Below, in pieces: positions 11,387-60,102 of a stretch of DNA of 64,000 bases. Every line of letters starts with the position of its first letter. The first letter of the stretch is position 1. Location: IMG/VR virus record IMGVR_UViG_3300008111_000002, positions 124,001 to 188,000 of that record, one strand, 5' to 3'. The position numbers were made by a program, and so were the translations under genes. The stretch is from a virus. Below the pieces are notes generated by a model. That model made no database searches. It was not told where the DNA came from and worked only from the letters and a program-made list of their open reading frames with translations.

Positions 11387-11419
11387 AACAAAAACCCCAC
11401 TTAGGTGGGGTTTTTTGTT
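11387..11419 (+). terminator. Rho-independent terminator after the giant adhesin gene
   Basis: The stem AAAACCCCAC / GTGGGGTTTT closes a TTAG loop and runs into TTTTTT, immediately after the stop of the 2472-residue gene. It separates the first fibre module from the second. Confidence 0.92.
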
Positions 11420-11432
11420 ACCTTTTGATTAT

Positions 11433-11440
11433 GATAAATA
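11433..11440 (+). promoter_or_regulatory. T4-type late promoter box
   Basis: GATAAATA directly follows the terminator and restarts transcription for the second fibre module. The leader has AAGGTGGG as ribosome-binding site before the ATG at 11459. Confidence 0.65.
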
Positions 11441-11458
11441 ATAAAAAGGTGGGATAAC

Positions 11459-12526
11459 ATGCCAACACGTGAGATACTTGCTGCTCGATTAAGATTACTT
11501 CCTGTTAGTTTAAAAACTTTTAGGGAAGGATTTCGCGGCGAAATTACCTATGACTATGATTCAAAAACTTTAAGATTATACGACGGCGAAACTCGTGGAG
11601 GTTTTGAGTTATTACGGTCAGATCTTTCAAATCTTGGTGGTGCAACAACTAATGTAACCTTGGGTACAATTACGGCAGTTACGTCGTTGGTTGGAAATTT
11701 AGATGTAAGAAGCAACGAAAAAATTGAATTTAAAAATTCAAGTAGTCAAAATGCAGGTAGTTTAAGTTTTGACGGCACCGACTTTTTATTACATAGTACA
11801 GTTAATGCTACATCAATTAAACTTCAAAATTCATCAGGTAGTGGACTTGTACAAATAACAGAATCTGGATCGATTGTTATTAACGCCGATCAACGAGTTA
11901 GCATTGAAGGATTTTATTTTCAAAATAATCAAATTGGCGCATCAGATTCTACAACATTAGAAATAAACAGTCCTATTAGATTAAATTACGATCAAACAAA
12001 TAAAGGTAATATTTTATCTTTTACAAACAACACACTACAAATTGGTTCTAATACTAACAGATTTAATAAAATATGGATAGGTAGTGGCGGTGTTGACATT
12101 GAAACTAATATTTTAACAAAGACATCTAGTGGAAAAATTAAACCATCTGCTGGTTTTGAAACTGATGTTGCATTTGATGCCAGCGGCGGAATTAACATGA
12201 GACAATCTGGTTATAATGGAACCTCAGTAACTGGACAAACTTCTTTAGTCATTTCAACTGATGCATTTGCTAAAGGAGCAGGTCAATTAGTTTTAACAAC
12301 CACAAATGTATTAGATAATGATAGAAGATATGTGTTAGTACCGGCAGTAAATAATCAATATGCGTTAGGTAATCCAAGTTATAGATTTAAGGCTGGTTAT
12401 GTATCAGAAATTGTATTTAATGATGGTACAACACAAACAACTGCACCAGAAACTAATACGCTAGTGGCAACAAAAGTTTATGCAAATAGAAAAGCAACTG
12501 CATTAGCAATTGCATTAGGTGGTTAA
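11459..12526 (+). CDS. Short tail fibre-type protein ending in AIALGG
   Basis: A 355-residue beta-rich fibre-type protein. The N-terminus (about residues 1-60, with FREGFRGEITYDYDSKTLRLYDG) looks like the attachment-type domain found at the start of many marine phage fibres (LPSSLKTFRxGxxGEIxYD.. style). The middle is Asn/Ser/Thr-rich short strands (KIEFKNSSSQNAGSLSFDG), and the end has FNDGTTQTTA and helical VYANRKATALAIALGG. The last residues match the C-terminus of the ten-repeat fibre at 599-3943. It lies 11 nt ahead of the second giant adhesin, mirroring the order of the first pair. Confidence 0.78.
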   Translation: MPTREILAARLRLLPVSLKTFREGFRGEITYDYDSKTLRLYDGETRGGFELLRSDLSNLGGATTNVTLGTITAVTSLVGNLDVRSNEKIEFKNSSSQNAGSLSFDGTDFLLHSTVNATSIKLQNSSGSGLVQITESGSIVINADQRVSIEGFYFQNNQIGASDSTTLEINSPIRLNYDQTNKGNILSFTNNTLQIGSNTNRFNKIWIGSGGVDIETNILTKTSSGKIKPSAGFETDVAFDASGGINMRQSGYNGTSVTGQTSLVISTDAFAKGAGQLVLTTTNVLDNDRRYVLVPAVNNQYALGNPSYRFKAGYVSEIVFNDGTTQTTAPETNTLVATKVYANRKATALAIALGG

Positions 12527-23479: not shown

Positions 23480-26400
23480 ATGGCAACATTAAATTCACCA
23501 GGCGCATCAGTAACCGTCATTGACGAAAGTTTCTATACGCCAGCAGAGCCAGGTACAGTTCCACTAATAGTAGTGGCTACCGGACAGAATAAAACAAATG
23601 GCGCAGGCACAGGCACAGCCGTAGCGACCACAAAAGCAAATGCAGGTAAAGCATTTAAAATTACCAGTCAAAGAGACTTAGTTGATAACTATGGGGTTCC
23701 TTTCTTTGAAAAAACAGTAAGTGGAACACCAGTACATGGATCTGAAAGAAACGAATACGGTCTTTTATCAGCGTACAGCTTATTAGGTGTATCCAATGCT
23801 GCTTTTATTGTAAGAGCAGACATTGATTTAACTCAGCTTGCTGGAAGCACAACAGCCCCGGGAGCGAACCCTGACAATGGTGACTGGTGGTTAGATACTG
23901 CCAACACCGCATGGGGTATTTTTGAATGGAATGGAAACGCAGCCAGCACAACAGGCGGTCAGAAATTTGCATCAAAGACTCCAATTGTGTTAACATCAGA
24001 TGATAACGTTAATCTTGAAAATAGTGGTTCATATGGTCGTGCTCCAAAATCAAGTGTTGGAGTTCCGGGCGACTATGCTGTAGTTGCAGAAATGAATGAG
24101 ACCTACACTGTTGATAAAGAATCTGTAAAGATTTTTTATAAGAGAGATACCACTTTATTAGGTGGCGATGCTTGGGTACTAGTTGGTTCTACTGCATGGG
24201 CTGCTAGTCATGCTACAGTAAAAAGTACAGTAACAAGCCCATCAATTACAGCTGGACAAACATTTTTAATTAACGGTGTAACTGTAACAGCTACTGGCAC
24301 TGATGCAACATCTTTAGTAACAGCAATTAATGCACTTAACATCAACGGCGTAACCGCAGCAAAAAGCTTTGATAGAGTATATCTATACACAGATGCTACT
24401 AACGACGATAATGTTGGCGATTCTGCTAGATCAAATGCAATTATTATTGCCAGTGGCGGCGGAAATTCTGGAACAATCTTAACAGACGTTGGACTTACTG
24501 CTGGTACCTACTACGGTCCACAGTTACAAATGAGTCCACATACACAGGTTCCTGAATTTAGATCAGACGACACAAATCCACGACCAAGCGGTAGTGTATG
24601 GATCAAAACAACAGAACCAAATATTGGATCTCGTTGGAGATTAAAACAATGGAGCAGCGGTACAAGTCTATGGACTGCTAAAGAATCTCCATTATATGCA
24701 ACAACACATGCAGCTATTTTTAATTTAGATAGAACAGGCGGTGGCACAAATATTCCGGTCGATACAGCATTTATTCAATATAATTCAACAGAAGATTTTG
24801 GATACGATAACACTCCACAGACAGCAACTTTCCGTGTATGGAAAAGAAAAGTTGCTGGACAAACTAGAGTAGTATCTGCTCCTGTTGCAGCAAATACATT
24901 TATAGCTGGAACAAATACTTTTACTATTCGAGAAATGGTAAAAGGTCAGTTAGCTCTTGACACAGCAAAAACTGTAACATTTACAGCAACCGCGGGTGCT
25001 TCTGATTCTGACAGAATCGCTACTGCAATTAATGCTTTAGGATTAACACAGGTTGAAGCAAGTGTAACCAGTGCAAATGAAGTTGTAATTGTCCACAAAA
25101 CAGGTGGAGATATTAGATTCACCGACGGAACGAATGTTCCATTGGGTAAAATCTTTACAGCATTTAACCAATCGGCATTAACAGGTACAGCTAATTTATA
25201 TTCTTTAGTTGGTATTGGTACCGGTGGTACTTTCTTAGCAAGTAACTGGTTACCATTGTTTAACGCATCGAATGATTTTAAATCTAAGAGATCTGCGCCG
25301 TTAAACGAGCCAGCTGACGGACAACTATGGTTTAATCCTAGTTTCAGCGATGTAGACATTATGACACATAACGGTACATCATGGAAAGGTTACAAAACAG
25401 TATTTCCAAATACTGACCCAGCAGGTCCAATTGTTGCAGCTTCAAAACCAACAACACAAAGTGACGGCACTGCATTAGTAGACAATGATTTATGGATTAG
25501 TACAGCAGATGCTGAAAACTTCCCAACTATCTACAGATATAATAATAATACTAAGGAATGGGTATTAGTAGATAAAACTGATGATCAATCAGAAGAGGGT
25601 GTTGTGTTTGCTGATGCACGTTACGGTTCAAGCGGTGCTACAGGAAACGTAGCAGCAAGTATTGTGACATTGTTAACAAATGATTTTGTTGATCCAGATG
25701 CTCCAGATCCAGCAAACTATCCAAGAAGTATTTTGTTATACAACACAAGACGTAGCAGTGGCAACGTTAAAAAATACAGAAATAATTATATCGATACAAC
25801 TAAAGACAACACACGTTATCTAGGTCAATCTATGGCTGCTTACGCAACTGATCGTTGGGTAACTGCAAGTGGTAATCAAGAAGACGGTAGTGGAACTTTT
25901 GGACGCATTGCTCAGCGTCAAGTAGTTGTACAGGCACTTAAAGCTGCTGTCGATACAAGTCAAGAAATTCGCGACGAAGAGCGTCGTAACTTTAATTTAA
26001 TTGCTTGTCCGGGGTATCCTGAGCTATTAAGCAATCTAGTTAATTTAAATCTTGATCGCGGTGTAACATCATTTGTTCTTGGGGATAGTCCACTAAGACT
26101 AACAGCAGATTCAACTAGTTTAACCAACTGGGGAACTAATGCTAACGGTGCATTAGACAACGGTGATAAGGGACTAGTAAGCTACGATGAATACAGTGCA
26201 GTTTGGTATCCAAACGGATTCACTACAGATCTAAGCGGTGTGAACGCAGTGGTACCAGCAAGTCACATGATGTTACGTACAATTGCTTTAAGTGATCAAG
26301 TAAGTTATCCATGGTTTGCACCAGCTGGTACAAGACGTGGCGGTATTACAAATGCAACAGCAGTTGGTTATATTGATAGATCAACTGGAGAATTCCAACA

Positions 26401-26836
26401 AGTAGCATTAAACGAAGGACAGCGAGATACATTATATGATATTAAAGTAAATCCAATCGCGTTCTTTAACGGCGTTGGGCATGTTGCATATGGTCAAAAA
26501 ACTCGTGCAAGAAATGCAAGTGCATTAGATAGAATTAATGTAGCACGTTTAGTAGTTTACCTACGTAGTCAATTAAGTAAATTGGCTCGCCCGTACGTGT
26601 TTGAACCAAACGATAAAATTACTCGTGATGAAATCAAACAAGCATGTGACAGTCTATTACTTGAACTAGTAGGTTTAAGAGCAATCTATGACTTCGCAGT
26701 TGTGTGTGATGAATCTAATAACACTCCAACTAGAATTGATAGAAATGAGCTTTATGTAGATATTGCAATCGAACCAGTGAAGGCCATTGAGTTTATCTAC
26801 ATTCCATTACGTATCAAAAATACAGGGGAGATTTAA
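23480..26836 (+). CDS. 18: Tail sheath protein (gp18-like), enlarged
   Basis: An 1118-residue contractile sheath subunit. The N-terminus (SPGASVTVIDESFYTPAEPG) and C-terminus (FNGVGHVAYGQKTRA, RINVARLVVYLRSQLSKL, ARPYVFEPND, IEFIYIPLRI) are typical of T4 gp18. T4 gp18 has 659 residues; the extra length lies in the middle, where four Trp-rich modules occur (about residues 127-153 DNGDWWLD; 363-400 SGSVWIKTT; 610-640 DGQLWFNPS; 667-700 DNDLWISTA, each ending in a x-W) together with Ig-like segments rich in Thr and Ala. These probably form surface-exposed domains on the sheath. It is followed 3 nt later by the tube gene. Confidence 0.93.
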   Translation: MATLNSPGASVTVIDESFYTPAEPGTVPLIVVATGQNKTNGAGTGTAVATTKANAGKAFKITSQRDLVDNYGVPFFEKTVSGTPVHGSERNEYGLLSAYSLLGVSNAAFIVRADIDLTQLAGSTTAPGANPDNGDWWLDTANTAWGIFEWNGNAASTTGGQKFASKTPIVLTSDDNVNLENSGSYGRAPKSSVGVPGDYAVVAEMNETYTVDKESVKIFYKRDTTLLGGDAWVLVGSTAWAASHATVKSTVTSPSITAGQTFLINGVTVTATGTDATSLVTAINALNINGVTAAKSFDRVYLYTDATNDDNVGDSARSNAIIIASGGGNSGTILTDVGLTAGTYYGPQLQMSPHTQVPEFRSDDTNPRPSGSVWIKTTEPNIGSRWRLKQWSSGTSLWTAKESPLYATTHAAIFNLDRTGGGTNIPVDTAFIQYNSTEDFGYDNTPQTATFRVWKRKVAGQTRVVSAPVAANTFIAGTNTFTIREMVKGQLALDTAKTVTFTATAGASDSDRIATAINALGLTQVEASVTSANEVVIVHKTGGDIRFTDGTNVPLGKIFTAFNQSALTGTANLYSLVGIGTGGTFLASNWLPLFNASNDFKSKRSAPLNEPADGQLWFNPSFSDVDIMTHNGTSWKGYKTVFPNTDPAGPIVAASKPTTQSDGTALVDNDLWISTADAENFPTIYRYNNNTKEWVLVDKTDDQSEEGVVFADARYGSSGATGNVAASIVTLLTNDFVDPDAPDPANYPRSILLYNTRRSSGNVKKYRNNYIDTTKDNTRYLGQSMAAYATDRWVTASGNQEDGSGTFGRIAQRQVVVQALKAAVDTSQEIRDEERRNFNLIACPGYPELLSNLVNLNLDRGVTSFVLGDSPLRLTADSTSLTNWGTNANGALDNGDKGLVSYDEYSAVWYPNGFTTDLSGVNAVVPASHMMLRTIALSDQVSYPWFAPAGTRRGGITNATAVGYIDRSTGEFQQVALNEGQRDTLYDIKVNPIAFFNGVGHVAYGQKTRARNASALDRINVARLVVYLRSQLSKLARPYVFEPNDKITRDEIKQACDSLLLELVGLRAIYDFAVVCDESNNTPTRIDRNELYVDIAIEPVKAIEFIYIPLRIKNTGEI

Positions 26837-39438: not shown

Positions 39439-40131
39439 ATGAAAAACATTGTTTTAATTACTGGTGGTTTTGATCCAATACACTCCGGACACATATCATA
39501 TATCAACGCGGCAAGAGAGCTCGGCGATTCGTTAATTGTTGGAGTTAATTCTGACGAATGGCTACGTCGAAAGAAAGGGCAGAAGTTTATGCCTTGGGAA
39601 GAACGTGCAAGCATTGTAGCTAACTTATACAGTGTTAGTCGAGTGATAAATTTTGACGATAGCGATAATAGTGCTAAAGATGCTATCCGAAAAGTTAGAG
39701 CAATACATCCTAATGCTAATATTATCTTCGCCAACGGCGGAGATCGAACCAAAGAAAATATTCCAGAAATGGATCTACTTAAAGAAATGTTACACCTAGA
39801 ATTTGTATTTGGTGTCGGTGGAGTAGATAAAAAAAATTCTAGCAGTTGGATTTTACAAGAATGGAAAGCTCCCAAAACTGAACGCCCTTGGGGTTATTAT
39901 CGTGTACTACACGAAAATGGCAAGGAAGTTAAAGTTAAAGAATTAACTGTGGAACCAGGACAATGCCTTAGTATGCAACGTCATCAAAACAGAGCAGAAC
40001 ATTGGTTTATTGCAGAAGGTACTGCAGAAATCTACACAATTAATAGAAGCACAGATCAAGAATTAGTTGGAATTTTTCATAAACATCAAAGTTTACATAT
40101 TAAAAAAGACGAATGGCATCAAGGACTGTAA
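39439..40131 (+). CDS. Nucleotidyltransferase-cupin fusion (RfaE2/TagD-like plus sugar isomerase-type cupin)
   Basis: A 230-residue two-domain protein. Residues 1-135 are a cytidylyl/adenylyltransferase: GGFDPIHSGHISYINAAREL contains the HxGH motif (HSGH), VGVNSDEWLRRKKG and MPWEERASIVANL follow, and FANGGDRTKENIPE is the nucleotide-binding end. Known relatives activate heptose-phosphate or glycerol-phosphate. Residues about 145-230 are a mannose-6-phosphate-isomerase-type cupin (ERPWGYYRVLHE, VEPGQCLSMQRHQNRAEHW, IAEGTAEI). The cupin ends right after EWHQGL, whereas the usual family continues with another strand; no alternative frame restores it. The likely role is sugar-nucleotide synthesis for surface glycans. 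Confidence 0.8.
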   Translation: MKNIVLITGGFDPIHSGHISYINAARELGDSLIVGVNSDEWLRRKKGQKFMPWEERASIVANLYSVSRVINFDDSDNSAKDAIRKVRAIHPNANIIFANGGDRTKENIPEMDLLKEMLHLEFVFGVGGVDKKNSSSWILQEWKAPKTERPWGYYRVLHENGKEVKVKELTVEPGQCLSMQRHQNRAEHWFIAEGTAEIYTINRSTDQELVGIFHKHQSLHIKKDEWHQGL

Positions 40132-52993: not shown

Positions 52994-53462
52994 ATTAGAC
53001 CTATTCAAAGATATCATTCCAGCTGTTGATTCTGGCATTAAAGATCTTTGGGACGCTTTAGAAGAGGATCAACAGAAAGAATTAAAAAAACTTTTGTTTG
53101 TTCTTGGACGCTGGATCAGCAGCCCAGTCTCTAGTGATCCGGATGTTCAAGCTCACTATATTTTAACTGTTAACGAATATTATAATAAAAATTATTATAA
53201 GTTTTATAACCATCCTAAACTGTTATGGTTACTGTTAACTATGTGTGCTAATCCTAAAGGAAAAGTTGTTAGAAGAGAATATATAAAGTTATCTAGAAAG
53301 GCAGAAGGTTCTAGTAAAAAACATAAATTTTTATTAGATAGATATCCTAGCGCCAAGTTAGATGACGTTGAACTATTGGCTAAAATTTTAACTGACGACG
53401 AAGTTAAACAAATTGCCAAAGACATGGGACTTGATAATAAACAAATCAAAGAACTTCTATAA
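52986..53462 (+). CDS. Clamp-loader small-subunit candidate (gp62-like)
   Basis: A 158-residue, helical protein. It has the general layout of gp62-type proteins: an amphipathic N-terminal helix, LGRWISSPVSSDPDVQAHYIL, NEYYNKNYYKFYNHPKLLWLLLTMC, then a basic stretch KVVRREYIKLSRKAEGSSKKHKF and a C-terminal helix pair (LLAKILTDDEVKQIAKDMG). T4 gp62 (187 residues) is poorly conserved, so the match is weak. gp44 and gp45 are not in the window. A different helical replication accessory is an alternative. Confidence 0.55.
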   Translation: MSKLDLFKDIIPAVDSGIKDLWDALEEDQQKELKKLLFVLGRWISSPVSSDPDVQAHYILTVNEYYNKNYYKFYNHPKLLWLLLTMCANPKGKVVRREYIKLSRKAEGSSKKHKFLLDRYPSAKLDDVELLAKILTDDEVKQIAKDMGLDNKQIKELL

Positions 53463-54133
53463 TGTTTGTTTGTGAATACTGTAAAAAAGAATTTGTCAAA
53501 GAAAAGACTCTGTTTGTTCATGTATGTGAACAGAAGCGTAGACACTTGAACAAAGGAGAAAAACATGTACAGGCTGGGTTTATGGCCTATACCAAGTTCT
53601 ATGAGGTAGCACAAAAAAATACTAAAAAAACTTTTGAAGACTTTGTAGAAAGCCCTTACTACACAGCATTTGTAAAGTTTGGCAGTTTTTTCGTTAACAC
53701 AAATCCAATTTATCCAGAACGATTTATAGAATTTGTAATACGCAGTAATACAAAATTAGATGCGTGGTGTAGTGATAATTTATATGACATATACATTGCT
53801 GAGTTAATCAAACAAGAACCAGCAGATGGTTCTATACAAAGAACTATACAAACAATGATGGACTGGGCTGATAAAAATAACTCAACTTGGGAACACTATT
53901 TTTTGTATGTGAATTTAAACAGACTAACACATGATATAAAAGAAGGATTAATCAGTCCGTGGATGTTGTTAAATATTCAATCAGGAAAAGACGCACTGCA
54001 AAAAATGAATGATGAACAGTTGGAAATTATCAGTACTATAATTGATCCACAATTTTGGAAACGTAAATTTAAAAACTATCCTGCAGATGTTGAACTAATT
54101 AAAGATGTTATCAAAGAAGCGAAAATATTATAA
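53462..54133 (+). CDS. Zinc-finger protein, possible gp59-like helicase loader
   Basis: A 223-residue protein. The N-terminal 25 residues hold a C2H2-type finger (CEYCKKEFVKEKTLFVHVC). The remaining 190 residues are helical: FYEVAQKNTKKTFEDFVES, FIEFVIRSNTKLDAWCSDN and LYVNLNRLTHDIKEGLISPWMLLN, with the pattern (L-x-x-G-x-I-S-x-x-x-L-L) that recalls the C-terminal domain of T4 gp59. gp59 loads gp41 on forks; T4 gp59 (217 residues) lacks such a finger. I therefore give gp59 only as a candidate. The start overlaps the previous stop by 1 nt. Confidence 0.5.
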   Translation: MFVCEYCKKEFVKEKTLFVHVCEQKRRHLNKGEKHVQAGFMAYTKFYEVAQKNTKKTFEDFVESPYYTAFVKFGSFFVNTNPIYPERFIEFVIRSNTKLDAWCSDNLYDIYIAELIKQEPADGSIQRTIQTMMDWADKNNSTWEHYFLYVNLNRLTHDIKEGLISPWMLLNIQSGKDALQKMNDEQLEIISTIIDPQFWKRKFKNYPADVELIKDVIKEAKIL

Positions 54134-54360
54134 TGCCTAAGAAAAAACAAGAACCGGAAGTAGTAGAACAAGATCTAGCAGAAAACGAAGAACCTCTTTC
54201 TAGAGATGATTTAGATATCGAAGTTGCTGTTGGTAGCGAGGAACCTGTTGTATATGTAAAGTTCAGCGGCTTTGAGGACATTGAAGATGCTGAAGAATAT
54301 GCAGAGTTTCTTGCAGAAACTTTACCACTATTGTTATTTGAGTCAACAAGGTTACAGTAA
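54133..54360 (+). CDS. Small acidic protein, position of gp33
   Basis: A 75-residue, strongly acidic protein with a charged start (PKKKQEPEVVEQDLAENEEP) and a strand-helix end (VVYVKFSGFEDIEDAEEYAEFLAETLPLLLFES). In T4 gp33 (late transcription co-activator, acidic, ending in a hydrophobic clamp-binding motif TLDFLL) follows gp59, which would match this spot if the upstream gene is gp59-like. The C-terminal hydrophobic run is only loosely similar, so the identity is open. Confidence 0.6.
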   Translation: MPKKKQEPEVVEQDLAENEEPLSRDDLDIEVAVGSEEPVVYVKFSGFEDIEDAEEYAEFLAETLPLLLFESTRLQ

Positions 54361-54938
54361 TGCCAGATATTGATATTGACTTTGCAGATAGAACAAAAGC
54401 ATTGGCTTTGTTCAAACATCACAGAGCCAGCAGAGTAGAAGATAACAAATTAGTAGTTCATAACACAGGTGTTTATTTTCATCCTGTGCCAATTGATGCA
54501 AGAACTAATCTTTCGTCAATACCATATGATCAAGCAGAAGAACAAGGATTTTTTAAAATTGATTTTCTCAATGTAGGAATCTATAAAAATATCAAAGATG
54601 AAAATCATCTTAAGACTTTAATGGAGACTGAACCACTATGGGATTTACTGTTACAGGACGACTTCGTGAACTTATTGTTCCATGTGAATGGGCATGGGTC
54701 TATTCTAAGAGAGATGGAACCAAAATCTATAGAAGAATTGGCAGCAGTACTGGCAATGATAAGACCCGCGAAACGTTATCTGATTGGGAAGCCATGGACT
54801 ACGGTGATGAACGAGATCTGGACGAAACCAGAGAATGACGAATACTACTTTAAAAAGAGTCATGCTACTGCGTATGCTCTTTCAATTATAGTTCAAATGA
54901 ATCAAATTTGTGAAAGTATTAGTTACGGTTATAGTTAA
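54360..54938 (+). CDS. Miniature DNA polymerase III alpha (DnaE)-like protein
   Basis: A 192-residue protein carrying, in the right order, several signature segments of the DnaE palm/fingers region compressed to less than a fifth of the cellular protein: MPDIDIDFADR (DnaE PDFDVDF, which holds a catalytic Asp), HNTGVYFHP (HAGGVV), EQGFFKIDFLNVGIYKNI (GLVKFDFLGLRTLTII), a LLQDDFVNLLFHVNGHGS segment (DnaE ..TTAVFQLESRGM), SIEELAAVLAMIRPAK (FEDMIALVALFRPGP) and FKKSHATAYALSIIVQ (FNKSHSAAYALVSYQT). The PHP domain, the D-x-D motif (E. coli D401/D403) and the C-terminal domains are absent. It starts in a TAATG overlap. The similarity is from memory of DnaE; activity is unlikely without the other two Asp residues, so a replisome- or nucleotide-binding role is plausible. 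Confidence 0.72.
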   Translation: MPDIDIDFADRTKALALFKHHRASRVEDNKLVVHNTGVYFHPVPIDARTNLSSIPYDQAEEQGFFKIDFLNVGIYKNIKDENHLKTLMETEPLWDLLLQDDFVNLLFHVNGHGSILREMEPKSIEELAAVLAMIRPAKRYLIGKPWTTVMNEIWTKPENDEYYFKKSHATAYALSIIVQMNQICESISYGYS

Positions 54939-55306
54939 CCAGCTTTTCTAATTAATACTATGCTTCTACGTTTAATTCTTTTGGTGATAATTTGATTTAG
55001 ACTTACGCAAGGCCCAAGCATTAATTTAACATCTTTGGTACTGAAATTTCTAATAGCGTATCTAAAAGGTTGTATTTCTTTAGCTAGAAAAATACTAATA
55101 GGAATTTGTCTATTTGATTCCCACCACCAAGCTTCCCCTAGTTCTAAAAATCTAGTTTTTTCTTCTTCGCTTTTTAAAGAAGTGTAATCATACATGCTAG
55201 TGATACTAGAGTCTTGATTAATAATAATGCCCACATATTCTTTGTCAACGTAGTTTATAACACTTATAAATGGGAAGTTTTGTTGTAAGTTTTCTGTTAT
55301 TCTCAT
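54935..55306 (-). CDS. Conserved-type hypothetical protein, antisense to the operon
   Basis: A 123-residue basic protein. Its C-terminal part (IPISIFLAKEIQPFRYAIRNF, KDVKLMLGPCVSLNQI, KRIKRRSIVLIRK) resembles a small protein family I have seen in marine T4-like phages, but I cannot name it. The convergent end shares a TTAA with the DnaE-like gene, and the opposite strand just upstream carries a late box for the next gene. Confidence 0.72.
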   Translation of the reverse strand: MRITENLQQNFPFISVINYVDKEYVGIIINQDSSITSMYDYTSLKSEEEKTRFLELGEAWWWESNRQIPISIFLAKEIQPFRYAIRNFSTKDVKLMLGPCVSLNQIITKRIKRRSIVLIRKAG

Positions 55307-56101: not shown

Positions 56102-57118
56102 ATGACTCTGGTCTTAGATACCCTACGTACATTACTGCCATATAAAAGAAAGCAAACACCAAGTGGTTGGATTAGCTTTAATGCTCCCTGTTGTCATCAT
56201 CGTGGTCACAAATCAGATGATAGACTAAGAGGCGGAGTCACATTTAATGAAGGTTTTGTATATCACTGTTTTAACTGTGGATTTTCTACAGGTTGGCAAC
56301 CAGGTCGTCCAATATCTTTTAAATTACGAGAATTATGTAGTTGGTTGGGTGCGTCAGATGATACTATAAAACGATTAATATTTGAAGCTTTAAAAACCGA
56401 ACGACCAGATTATGTAAATCAACATTACACCCCTCCAGTTGAATTTACCAAAAAAGAATTACCAGAAGGTAGTTTGCCGTTAATAGAATGGATGCAGGAA
56501 AAATTAGATGTAGAAACTGAACAAAAAATATTGTTAGTGATACAATATCTTATTGATCGTGGATTTAATCCGTTGGCAGAAAACTTTTATTGGTCACCGT
56601 TAGCGGGTTATGACAATAGAGTTATAATTCCGTTTTTGTATCATGGTCAAACTGTAGGTAGTACTGCAAGACGCATTACACCTGGAAAGCCAAAGTATCT
56701 TTCAGATCAGCATCCAAACTTTGTATTCAATATGGATGCACAGGCTAATGATAGAAAATATGTAATTGTCTGCGAAGGTCCATTTGATGCACTGGCAATT
56801 GGCGGTGTTGCACTTCTCACAAACGAAATTTCTGAACAACATGCTAGGATAATTAATAGTCTATCCCGTCAAGTTATTTTCGTTCCAGATCAAGATAAAG
56901 CAGGTATAGCAGGTATCGATAAAGCTAGAGAATTGGGTTGGAGCGTAGCATTCCCTAATTGGAATAGCAGTATCAAAGATTGTGCCGATGCAGTGAAAGA
57001 ATACGGAAAAATGTTTACTATTGTTGATATTATAAAGACATCAGTTAGTGGTAATATAAAAATTAATTTGATGAAAAATCAAATGATTAAAAGGATTAAA
57101 AATGTTCAGACTAATTGA
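56102..57118 (+). CDS. 61: DNA primase (gp61-like)
   Basis: A 338-residue primase that makes RNA primers for the lagging strand together with gp41. The N-terminal zinc ribbon has CCHHRGHKSDD (residues about 29-39) and YHCFNCGF (about 57-64). The TOPRIM core has VIVCEGPFDAL at about residues 221-230 (catalytic Glu) and VIFVPDQDKAGIAG near 258-270 (D-x-D). It ends with a Lys/Ile-rich tail, where the next small gene begins in another frame. Length equals T4 gp61 (342). The downstream genes are a 30-codon gene, the carbamoyltransferase and gp41. Confidence 0.92.
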   Translation: MTLVLDTLRTLLPYKRKQTPSGWISFNAPCCHHRGHKSDDRLRGGVTFNEGFVYHCFNCGFSTGWQPGRPISFKLRELCSWLGASDDTIKRLIFEALKTERPDYVNQHYTPPVEFTKKELPEGSLPLIEWMQEKLDVETEQKILLVIQYLIDRGFNPLAENFYWSPLAGYDNRVIIPFLYHGQTVGSTARRITPGKPKYLSDQHPNFVFNMDAQANDRKYVIVCEGPFDALAIGGVALLTNEISEQHARIINSLSRQVIFVPDQDKAGIAGIDKARELGWSVAFPNWNSSIKDCADAVKEYGKMFTIVDIIKTSVSGNIKINLMKNQMIKRIKNVQTN

Positions 57119-57194
57119 AAAAATAAAAGAATACATTAAAAGAAAACGTAGATTAAAAGAACTACGTAAAAGAGATCCGTTTATCTATAAATGA
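57102..57194 (+). CDS. Tiny basic protein (30 residues) between primase and carbamoyltransferase
   Basis: A 30-codon gene in a different frame from the primase end. It starts with ATG at 57102 behind AAGGATTAAAA, and its TGA overlaps the ATG of the carbamoyltransferase (ATGA), the standard coupling in this operon. The product is a single basic amphipathic helix (MFRLIEKIKEYIKRKRR) ending in ELRKRDPFIYK. The unusual ending looks conserved in my memory of other marine T4-like phages. It could bind RNA, DNA or membrane. Its place in the replication operon is the only functional clue. Confidence 0.7.
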   Translation: MFRLIEKIKEYIKRKRRLKELRKRDPFIYK

Positions 57195-58660
57195 TTACTT
57201 GGGGGATTTCGGCTAACAGTCACAATGCTGCACTTGCAGTATTTGATGAAGATCATTTAATATTTGCCAGTGAATCGGAAAGATTTAGCAAAATTAAAAA
57301 TGATCCGCATCTACATCACGATTTAATTGACTACGCAAAAACTATTGCGGGCGAACCTGATCTAGTATGTTGGTATGAAAAGCCGTGGCTGAAAACCATG
57401 CGTCAAATATTTGCAGGACAAGATTTTGAATACAATAGTGTTAAAAAATATTTGTCTAGGTACAGCATTAATGCCCCTATAAAAACATTTAGACATCATC
57501 ACAGTCATGCAGCAGCAGGTTATTATACCAGTACATTTAAAGATGCATGTGTTATTGTTATTGATGCAATTGGAGAATTTGAAACTTTATCAATTTGGAA
57601 AGGTCAAGGTAAGAATTTAACAAAAGTATATTCACTTTCTTATCCTGACAGCATTGGTTTATTTTACTCTGCAATGACACAACGATGTGGTTTAAAACCC
57701 AATGAAGAAGAGTACATTCTTATGGGCATGGCCGCATATGGTGACTATTCAGTGTTATTGAGAGACGTAACAAAAGATTTTATACATTTTCCAACTGATT
57801 ATAAACATCCTGTGTTGTTTAAACAAAATTTACATAGAGGATGCAACTGGTGGAAACCTGAACTACAATCTCCTAAGCAGTTATTTGATATTGCAGCCGC
57901 AACACAGAAGATGTATGAAATTTGTTTTGTTAGAATTTTACAGTTCGCACAACAACTTGTTGAAAGTGAAAATTTAGTGTTAATGGGAGGCTGTGCTTTA
58001 AATTGCTCAGCTAATTCAAAAATCTTTGATTACTTTAATGATGCATGGATCATGCCTGCACCAGGGGATAGCGGATCAGCCATTGGTGCAGTGTTAGCAC
58101 ACAAAGGAACACGTATTAAATGGACAGGACCGTATTTAGGTTACGATATTAGTCCACGAAAATTAAACAGAGAAATTGTTGAATACTTACAGATAAACAA
58201 AATATGTGGAGTAGCTAGAGGCCCTGCAGAATTTGGTCCACGTGCATTGGGCAATAGGAGCTTACTGGCAGATCCCAGGGATCCTAGTATAAAAGATCGT
58301 GTAAACGAAATAAAGAAAAGAGAAACATTTAGACCATTTGCGCCTGCTATATTAGAAGAACATGCCAACAGGTATTTTGTAATGCCTACAAAGAAAAGTC
58401 CATATATGCAATACACTGCATATTGTCTACAACCAAATTTATTTCCTTCTATTGTTCACAAAGACGGAACCAGTAGAGTTCAAACAGTTGGTCCTAATGA
58501 TAATCCTAAATTTAGAGAACTGTTAGAAATGTGGTATGCTAAAACAGGATGCCCTATGTTGTTGAATACCAGTTTGAATATAAAAGGCGAACCTATAGTA
58601 AACGACCTAGCAGATTCAATGACTTGGGCCAGTACCTATGGTTTACCTGTTTTTAATTAG
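57191..58660 (+). CDS. Carbamoyltransferase (NodU/CmcH family)
   Basis: A 489-residue carbamoyltransferase. The kinase-like N-terminal domain opens WGISANSHNAALAVFDEDHL and has RHHHSHAAAGYYTS near residue 100 (H-x3-H-A-type motif), VIDAIGEFETLSIW and LMGMAAYGDY. The YrdC-like C-terminal part has EFGPRALGNRSLLADPRD and ETFRPFAPAILEEH. Cellular members carbamoylate sugars or antibiotics; in marine T4-like phages such genes sit next to the replisome and may modify nucleotides or DNA. It lies between the 30-codon gene and gp41. Confidence 0.9.
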   Translation: MITWGISANSHNAALAVFDEDHLIFASESERFSKIKNDPHLHHDLIDYAKTIAGEPDLVCWYEKPWLKTMRQIFAGQDFEYNSVKKYLSRYSINAPIKTFRHHHSHAAAGYYTSTFKDACVIVIDAIGEFETLSIWKGQGKNLTKVYSLSYPDSIGLFYSAMTQRCGLKPNEEEYILMGMAAYGDYSVLLRDVTKDFIHFPTDYKHPVLFKQNLHRGCNWWKPELQSPKQLFDIAAATQKMYEICFVRILQFAQQLVESENLVLMGGCALNCSANSKIFDYFNDAWIMPAPGDSGSAIGAVLAHKGTRIKWTGPYLGYDISPRKLNREIVEYLQINKICGVARGPAEFGPRALGNRSLLADPRDPSIKDRVNEIKKRETFRPFAPAILEEHANRYFVMPTKKSPYMQYTAYCLQPNLFPSIVHKDGTSRVQTVGPNDNPKFRELLEMWYAKTGCPMLLNTSLNIKGEPIVNDLADSMTWASTYGLPVFN

Positions 58661-58677
58661 AATGTATAATAATAACT

Positions 58678-60102
58678 ATGATTGACAATTACAGTCCCGA
58701 AACACAAAAAATATTCTTAGAAATGATGATGGCTGATGCTGAATCTTATTTCAGATGTCAAAGCATCTTTGATCACAGTCTATTTGATCGACGTTATCAA
58801 GAATCTGCCGAATTTATTAAAGTATACGTTGATCAATATCGAGCAATGCCAGAATATAACATGGTCAATGCTGCCTGTAACACAGATTTTAAAAAGCCAG
58901 ACAGCGTTAAAGAAGGCCATGTAGATTGGCTATTGGATAGTTTTGAAAAATTTGTAAGACACAAAAGTATTGAACGTGCAATCATTAATTCTGCAGATCT
59001 ATTAGACAAAGGCGATTATGGATCTGTTGAAACTATGATTAAAGAAGCAGTACAGATTGGTCTTGCTAAAGATATGGGCACTGACTACTTTGCAGATCCT
59101 AAATCACGATTAATGGGATTAAAAGATAAAAACGGACAAATATCTACTGGCTGGAAAAATCTTGATAATAGATTGTTTGGCGGTATGAATCGTGGCGAGC
59201 TTAATATTTTTGCTGGTGGTAGTGGTGCAGGTAAATCATTATTTCTTGCAAACCTTGGTCTTAATTGGGCAATGGCTGGATTAAATGTTGTCTATGTAAC
59301 ATTAGAACTTAGTGAAGCATTAGTTAGTATGCGTATTGACAGTATGCTAACAGGAATTCCAACAAAAGAAATTTTTAAAGATATTGAAAACGTTGAAACC
59401 AAAGTTAAACTGATTGGAAAGAAGGCAGGTGCATATCAGATCAAATATGTACCAAGTGGTAAAAATGTTAACGATCTAAGAGCGTATATTAAAGAATTTG
59501 AAATTAAAACAGAACGTAAGGTTGATGTTATCTTAGTTGACTACTTAGACTTACTAATGCCAATCAGCAGAAAGATTAGTCCTGCAGATTTGTTCATCAA
59601 AGACAAATATGTTTCTGAAGAACTGCGTAACTTTGCAGTTGAACGTAAAGCTATTCTAGTCACAGCCGCACAGTTGAATCGAGGTGCTGTAGAAGAAGTA
59701 GAATATGATCACAGTCATATCTCAGGAGGACTTAGTAAGATTCAAACTGCAGATAATGTGTTTGGTATTTTTACATCACGTGCTATGAGAGAGCGAGGAC
59801 GTTATCAATTACAATTAATGAAAACTAGATCATCAAGCGGTGTAGGAATGAAAGTAGATCTAGAATTTAATTTAGAAAGTCTAAGGATCAGCGATCTACC
59901 CGAAGATGAACAAGAATCCAGTGGAGGTATGCGTCCTACTTCTGGAATATTAGATGACATAAAACGCAAAGCCACAGTAAAGGCCCATCAAGAGGACTCT
60001 GAACCAAATCCATTCCAAGGTGCTGCTGTACCTAAAGTAAGAGCCAATGTTGAGAGCACGAAACTGCGGGATCTGCTGAACAATATTGGTAATGAAGAAT
60101 AG
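58678..60102 (+). CDS. 41: Replicative DNA helicase (gp41)
   Basis: A 474-residue DnaB-family hexameric helicase. Walker A GGSGAGKS lies at about residues 180-187 after MNRGELNIFA; then YVTLELSEALVSMRID (H1a/H2 area), VDVILVDYLDLLMP (Walker B near 285), ILVTAAQLNRGA (H3 with Gln) and a terminal QLQLMKTRSSSGVG arginine-finger region. T4 gp41 has 475 residues. The ATG follows TATAATAATAACT with little ribosome-binding sequence. The last 11 nt overlap the next gene start (60092). Confidence 0.94.
   Translation: MIDNYSPETQKIFLEMMMADAESYFRCQSIFDHSLFDRRYQESAEFIKVYVDQYRAMPEYNMVNAACNTDFKKPDSVKEGHVDWLLDSFEKFVRHKSIERAIINSADLLDKGDYGSVETMIKEAVQIGLAKDMGTDYFADPKSRLMGLKDKNGQISTGWKNLDNRLFGGMNRGELNIFAGGSGAGKSLFLANLGLNWAMAGLNVVYVTLELSEALVSMRIDSMLTGIPTKEIFKDIENVETKVKLIGKKAGAYQIKYVPSGKNVNDLRAYIKEFEIKTERKVDVILVDYLDLLMPISRKISPADLFIKDKYVSEELRNFAVERKAILVTAAQLNRGAVEEVEYDHSHISGGLSKIQTADNVFGIFTSRAMRERGRYQLQLMKTRSSSGVGMKVDLEFNLESLRISDLPEDEQESSGGMRPTSGILDDIKRKATVKAHQEDSEPNPFQGAAVPKVRANVESTKLRDLLNNIGNEE

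Follow-up and report, generated by a model that had tools for sequence, protein, structure and literature searches.

A 192-residue viral protein as the probable C-terminal half of a split, minimal DNA polymerase III alpha

We find that a short viral protein carries the complete catalytic aspartate triad of DNA polymerase III (Pol III) alpha, and that the triphosphate-binding loop of the same polymerase is encoded by a second, distant gene of the same record. The most probable reading, to which we give roughly 0.65, is that a minimal Pol III alpha made of two chains has this protein as its C-terminal half (the C-half), which binds metal and template, and that the C-half assembles with its partner (the N-half) as a small polymerase. 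The DNA analysed, called the window here, is a stretch of 64,000 nucleotides that covers positions 124001-188000 of a 209,836-base viral record, on which the C-half gene occupies 178360-178938. The gene and its principal sites are located as follows, in window coordinates.

54360-54938, plus strand: probable C-half of a split minimal Pol III alpha, 192 aa, with an ATG start (phrog_11778; AlphaFold model)
54366-54374, plus strand: codons D3-I4-D5, where D3 and D5 are the counterparts of the metal ligands D401 and D403 of E. coli DnaE (motif position)
54459-54473, plus strand: HNTGV (H34-V38), counterpart of E. coli H511-V515 in KHAGGVV (motif position)
54561-54563, plus strand: codon of D68, in KIDFL, counterpart of the third metal ligand, E. 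coli DnaE D555 (motif position)
54762-54767, plus strand: R135-P136, start of the counterpart of E. coli RPGPL (639-643) in the fingers (motif position)
54858-54863, plus strand: S167-H168, counterparts of E. coli S759-H760 (motif position)

The chain thus comprises a metal-binding palm, the third catalytic Asp, shortened fingers and a steric-gate helix. A sequence-only reading of the window had pointed to this plus-strand frame of 192 codons and quoted six DnaE-like segments from it; the frame is present, and all six segments are found in it, in order. It had also anticipated a profile match to DnaE, and this expectation is borne out in part. The match to phrog_11778, named 'DNA polymerase', spans almost the entire protein (E = 9.1e-70), and phrog_405, the phage Pol III alpha family, is matched with an E-value of 1.4e-7. 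The curated family cut-offs are not reached by the C-half: two NCBIfam Pol III alpha models match at E = 8.4e-5 and 2.3e-4, both far under their cut-offs, and Pfam DNA_pol3_finger scores 15.5 bits against a cut-off of 22. Among 60 members of the C-half family, TIGR00594 is matched at E = 0.01 or better by 42 and DNA_pol3_finger at E = 0.01 by just 8, the window protein not being one of them; an unrelated arginine succinyltransferase model is likewise matched by 8 of the 60 at E = 0.01 or better. When PDB sequences are compared with the single C-half sequence, Pol III appears at E = 0.17, and with a profile of the 60 sequences a tRNA hydroxylase ranks first (E = 0.0088) and Pol III next (E = 0.013). 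Taken by itself, sequence would therefore be a weak argument for the C-half as a Pol III.

The predicted structure speaks more directly to the fold. The AlphaFold model of the C-half (pLDDT 91, pTM 0.76) superposes on the palm and fingers of DnaE, as the sequence-only reading had proposed: its residues 1-190 align with residues 400-784 of E. coli DnaE (2hnh; Z 8.7, 187 residues) and with residues 461-841 of 3e0d (Z 9.6, 188 residues, 3.6 Å), and the model aligns with residues 971-1299 of G. kaustophilus PolC (3f2b; Z 9.3). The 14 best PDB entries are all DNA polymerases, with Z-scores from 6.1 to 9.6, and the next entry, an unrelated one, scores 3.5. Twelve of these 14 are named Pol III alpha or PolC; the remaining two, 9qrn and 9qpc, have no more than 'DNA polymerase' as their titles, and their alignments follow PolC numbering. 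Foldseek alone returns one match with E below 0.001, the polymerase rows having TM-scores of 0.39-0.52. Because the phrog_405 match and the structure matches agree, we conclude that the C-half is a relative of Pol III rather than a chance resemblance, that its similarity to Pol III alpha exceeds chance and that its DnaE-like signal is real.

The active site is more complete than had been supposed. The catalytic triad of C-family polymerases consists of E. coli D401, D403 and D555 (PMC3919608, PMC8485763). D401 and D403 correspond to the PDIDIDF segment of the C-half, whose E. coli counterpart is PDFDVDF at 400-406, and D555 corresponds to KIDFL; consequently, the triad is complete as D3, D5 and D68, and the earlier statement that the other catalytic Asp pair is absent does not hold. 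H168 aligns with E. coli H760, the proposed steric gate of Pol III (PMC8485763). The C-half D7 is the counterpart of E. coli D405, a position that is Asp across all DnaE groups and Asn in PolC (PMC3919608), and so the protein is DnaE-like there.

We compared these positions across 110 distinct C-half sequences, derived from the window and 138 complete C-halves of other records and trimmed at the DxDxD pattern before residues were counted; the loci left out of the 142 available were three cut by a contig end and L235, whose C-half is intact with DxDxD present. D3, D5, I6, D7, H34, G37, P44 and K66 are invariant in 110 of 110, as are D68, W94, I134, R135, P136, K138 and H168, among relatives that range down to 38% identity; S167 is conserved in 70 of the 110. 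The 80 nearest C-halves were picked partly with a pattern containing MPDIDIDF, and loci like those of PA5oct and RaK2 partly by DVDIDVAD and DIDIDVKD. Since these patterns cover the motif, DxDxD in pattern-picked loci is not independent evidence. D68 and H168 are covered by no search pattern, and DxDxD is kept in all 16 named phages, which were found by tblastn with no pattern.

The GRGS triphosphate loop of Pol III has no counterpart in the C-half. When the window's own record was searched with Pfam DNA_pol3_alpha, a single match came up (11591-11845, E = 1.7e-12), inside the following gene.

11387-11854 of the 209,836-base record, outside the window: N-half, 155 aa (Pfam DNA_pol3_alpha)

The N-half passes the Pfam cut-off (45.7 against 23.9 bits) and matches phrog_11127, 'DNA polymerase', at E = 3.2e-39. 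It contains a GVGRGSS loop, and in the Pol-beta-like fold a loop of this type holds the triphosphate of the incoming dNTP. GxGRGSS is found in 78 of 78 distinct N-halves, a set that was itself retained by that motif (one of 100 loci, L192, was left out). The C-terminal end of the protein reads ...GVGRGSSVASYVLYLIGVHKVDSVKYNLPIEEFFKEI. Residues 58-155 of its model (pLDDT 85.7) align with E. coli DnaE from 278 or 279 to 395 at Z-scores of 9.6-10.8 and with M. tuberculosis DnaE 307-415 (7pu7, Z 10.3; 5lew, same range, Z 11.9). The next unrelated entry scores 2.4, and the alignments cover residues 58-155 without 1-57. Foldseek alone gives no N-half match below 0.001, yet DNA polymerases occupy the top 16 rows. 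By eye, a GroES-like co-chaperonin and a MazG-like protein lie downstream of the N-half gene (L002:1995-2387 and 2384-2755).

The two halves fit together as consecutive parts of one polymerase. On phrog_405, a profile of 1190 positions, the N-half matches at 366-431 and the C-half at 579-678. The N-half ends at about E. coli residue 395 and the C-half begins at 400, which places a single break in the bacterial chain, after the GRGS loop and ahead of the first Asp pair. Judging from the two models, almost nothing is lost at this seam. The losses lie elsewhere. The interval from PDxDxDF to the HxGGV-type motif, which we take to be the thumb region with boundaries from the E. coli structure, is 79 residues shorter in the C-half than in E. 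coli, and the interval in the fingers from RP to the steric gate is 88 residues shorter. The C-half model ends near E. coli 784 and thus has no HhH, clamp-binding, OB or C-terminal parts. Nothing in it precedes E. coli residue 400, so this chain has neither the PHP domain nor the triphosphate loop; a model spanning E. coli 400-784 confirms the earlier remark that the frame lacks PHP and C-terminal domains. DnaE is described as a single chain of PHP, palm, thumb and fingers, (HhH)2 and a clamp-binding motif (PMC3919608). The record does not have that single-chain architecture: it has two genes, an N-half that starts at about E. coli 279 and a C-half that runs to 784.

We then consider how widely the halves occur and how often they occur together. 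By tblastn, the C-half is found in 64 phage records, all below 60% identity, including RaK2, 121Q/PBECO4, CBB, PA5oct, Atu_ph07, Phosso, SCTP-2, Munch and relatives; among the 60 of these 64 records that were listed, 57 are 284-490 kb long and three are 86-110 kb. One relative, Sharanji, has MG1655 as its listed host. Among the matches listed (60 for each half, out of 64 C-half and 108 N-half records, many of them near-duplicates), 59 of the 60 C-half records are shared by eye, PP728206 (109.5 kb) being the single listed C-half record outside the listed N-half records. The N-half, the C-half and a family B polymerase are each present in 16 of 16 named jumbo phages, which were chosen from the C-half tblastn matches. 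The window's record likewise has a family B polymerase, as an 891-aa frame with the motifs DINSLYPS and YGDTDS intact, and the coexistence with such a polymerase that had been suggested for this virus is thereby confirmed. An RNase_T (DnaQ-type) exonuclease, sought in the same record, was not found.

Long metagenomic records show exceptions to the pairing. The N-half is present in 10 of 14 such records chosen for their C-half, and the C-half in three of four chosen for their N-half, so that one half is lacking in five of the 18. Repeated searches did not find the N-half in G001, G002, G003 and G008, nor the C-half in G010. The family B polymerase was also not found in G001, G003 and G008, and these three may therefore be fragments. 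G002 (locus L025, 280,019 bases) has a C-half and a family B polymerase with no detectable N-half; either it is incomplete, or in its lineage the C-half has another partner. G010 (locus L133, 202,272 bases) has an N-half and a family B polymerase with no detectable C-half.

The two genes are not neighbors. They lie 166 kb apart on the window's record as laid out, and, in record coordinates, 14-15 kb apart in XacN1 and RAS14 and more than 180 kb apart in Atu_ph07 and Phosso. No N-half was found in the 1-5 kb flanks of the 142 C-loci, and no C-half in the 1.5-3 kb flanks of the 100 N-loci; such non-adjacency is unusual for obligate partners. A natural fusion of the halves was sought and not found; all 80 nearest C-halves begin with MPDI and have at most 54 open codons upstream. 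A mirror tree of the halves gave r = 0.93 over 20 genomes without Atu_ph07, with none of 2000 permutations as high, and shows common descent only, because it has no control gene.

The C-half is under purifying selection. Its median dN/dS is 0.089 and its maximum 0.17 over 103 pairs that are 80-97% identical with dS below 2, calculated from the 72 of 80 sequences that have equal length. Length is uniform as well, at 188-193 aa in the 80 nearest relatives, and a scan of viral contigs yielded at least 547 related stretches among its candidates.

Replication genes lie close to the C-half in the window.

54935-55306, minus strand: convergent small gene, phrog_11637 (function unknown; E = 9.3e-37), a syntenic neighbor by position and strand, not a part of the polymerase
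56102-57118, plus strand: Toprim primase, phrog_47, context of the replication neighborhood
58678-60102, plus strand: DnaB-like replicative helicase, phrog_19, context

Gene order around the C-half is similar in distant phages. In position and strand only, a reverse-strand gene follows the C-half directly on its 3′ side in 14 of 16 fetched phage regions and stands one gene further away in the other two; an annotated primase gene lies within the stretch in 10 of the 16, much as in the window. Two genes upstream of the C-half, at 53462-54133 on the plus strand, is a phrog_11058 protein (E = 8.3e-63) with a possible N-terminal C2H2 zinc finger that is sub-threshold in Pfam, and a Nol-like carbamoyltransferase (phrog_1601, E = 6.5e-101; 57191-58660, plus strand) stands between the primase and DnaB helicase genes. 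Farther away, the tail sheath protein of 1118 aa (23480-26836, plus strand) extends about 200 residues beyond its 915-position PHROG profile, and the frame at 39439-40131 (plus strand) matches nucleotidyl/cytidylyltransferase-type families at its N-terminus and, weakly, cysteine dioxygenase at its C-terminus.

A split minimal DNA polymerase III has been described before, in group 2.2 jumbo phages, by Iyer et al. in 2021 (PMC7824862). Their split enzyme is itself a published inference, consisting of an N-terminal NTP-binding protein and a C-terminal Mg- and template-binding protein. Both their enzyme and the present pair comprise two standalone proteins, encoded by distant genes, with a family B polymerase alongside; compared with the available part of that paper's description, the pair shows no essential difference. 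Atu_ph07, which the available text names as group 2.2, carries both halves. The window's C-half is thus a further case of an already published split Pol III. Beyond what the accessible portion of PMC7824862 describes, the present analysis adds the position of the seam (395/400), the complete Asp triad with its steric gate, an inventory of the lost parts and a co-occurrence count with its exceptions. Among the literature matches listed, as far as their text was available, PMC7824862 is the only description of a split Pol III and an experimental study of one does not appear; nothing on it was found in the available parts of PMC3622015, PMC11348598, PMC11646218 and PMC12619734.

Single alpha genes had been noticed earlier. 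A truncated 172-aa Pol III alpha was noted in phage CBB in 2017 (PMC5259590) and a Pol III alpha subunit in Atu_ph07 in 2018 (PMC6102473), the named genes being CBB_328 and gp316, respectively; in the text available, each of these papers names a single alpha gene, whereas the window's record has a pair. KU574722, the CBB deposit, gives the name 'DNA polymerase III alpha' to the N-half and annotates the C-half region as hypothetical or as a putative membrane protein; CBB_328 is therefore probably the N-half. Elsewhere, phrog_11778 and phrog_11127 are both named 'DNA polymerase' in PHROGs v4, and the Phosso orthologue of the C-half appears in GenBank as 'DnaE-like DNA polymerase III alpha'. Other reports in this area, as far as their available text goes, concern a MIJ3 family B polymerase that is split and carries an intein, which is a different thing (PMC6892783), a marine jumbo cluster of which 51.9% has the PF07733 domain (PMC9123017) and a count of two DNA polymerases in phAPEC6 (PMC7247149).

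The phage pair shares with bacterial DnaE the Asp triad, the GRGS loop (in the partner), the HxGGV-type motif, the RP of the fingers, the steric-gate His and the palm fold; unlike bacterial DnaE, it has two chains, no PHP domain and nothing past E. coli 784. With phrog_405, the full-length Pol III alpha of phages such as the group 3.2 jumbo phages, it has in common that both halves match consecutive parts of a single model. The group 3.2 enzyme has an N-terminal PHP domain and resembles the host enzyme, according to the available text of PMC7824862, in contrast to the split pair without PHP.

How such a pair would work can be proposed in outline; we infer its physical assembly, its polymerase activity and its role throughout. 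The N-half would supply the GVGRGSS loop to hold the triphosphate of the incoming dNTP, and the C-half would bring the fingers Arg-Pro, the Asp triad that coordinates two metal ions, and H168, the steric-gate His, which would select deoxyribose. In bacteria the chain runs uninterrupted through the palm; there the two halves may associate non-covalently and thereby reconstitute a single active site. Because the assembled enzyme is without thumb, clamp-binding, OB and PHP regions, it should be distributive and weakly processive, and its likeliest job would therefore be short-patch synthesis beside the family B replicase: gap filling, lesion bypass or the finishing of lagging-strand pieces. A more specific version of this proposal, which we offer tentatively and think somewhat more apt to be wrong than right, is that the two chains (192 + 155 aa) form a thumb-less, clamp-less polymerase of about 350 residues, a dedicated second polymerase with an active site only once the products of the unlinked genes meet. 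An active site built from two proteins would then have its activity switched by assembly.

The rival readings can be weighed against the same observations. The halves might assemble as a nucleotidyltransferase, adding to ends or another acceptor, rather than as a templated DNA polymerase. The core that is kept is the Pol-beta-like nucleotidyltransferase fold, and the thumb interval has lost 79 residues and the fingers 88; nevertheless, the invariant steric-gate His and fingers Arg-Pro point to dNTP selection on a template, and the C-half gene is close to primase and helicase genes, which leaves this reading rather unlikely. Slightly less likely again is a non-catalytic regulator or decoy that binds a host or phage replication fork. 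It would accommodate the loss of large polymerase parts and the availability of a family B polymerase, with intact motifs, for genome replication, but a decoy would have no need of metal ligands, and D3, D5, K66, D68 and H168 are invariant in 110 of 110 sequences; further, the N-half with its triphosphate loop is kept in 16 of 16 named phages and 10 of 14 long metagenomic records. It is because only catalysis is known to call for these invariant residues that we consider a regulator unlikely. The suggestion in the sequence-only reading that the protein is a catalytically stripped relic, decoy or regulator is accordingly at odds with an active site that is invariant in 110 of 110, a dN/dS of 0.089 and an N-half in the same record.

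Degeneration and coincidence fare worse. That the C-half is a decaying fragment of a host-derived DnaE, heading for loss, could be argued from its 192 aa against the 1160 aa of E. coli DnaE and from the records that lack one half; however, a length held to 188-193 aa in the 80 nearest relatives, the low median dN/dS (0.089), the at least 547 related viral stretches and the similar gene order in distant phages make this very improbable. Chance resemblance of motifs, with no relationship to DnaE, would account for the weak PDB sequence matches, headed by an unrelated protein, and for the Pfam score under its cut-off, but hardly for the phrog_405 match at 1.4e-7, the 14 best structures that are all DNA polymerases and well separated from the next, or the coincidence of the active-site residues with those of DnaE; we give it almost no credence. 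The homology to the palm and fingers of DnaE that the sequence-only reading had put forward is upheld by both the phrog_405 match and the predicted fold that superposes on them.

On the preferred reading, a split minimal Pol III alpha, one genome keeps a complete family B polymerase together with a minimal family C active site, two enzymes with unrelated palm folds. It can now be stated which residues should be mutated and which proteins should be expressed together. If the more specific, tentative version is true, the pair would be the smallest core able to run Pol III chemistry. Iyer et al. suggested, in the available text, that minimal Pol III resembles the ancestral form (PMC7824862). If the halves do work, they would set the minimum of protein with which Pol III catalysis can proceed, and the origin of family C polymerases could be approached in a simple system.
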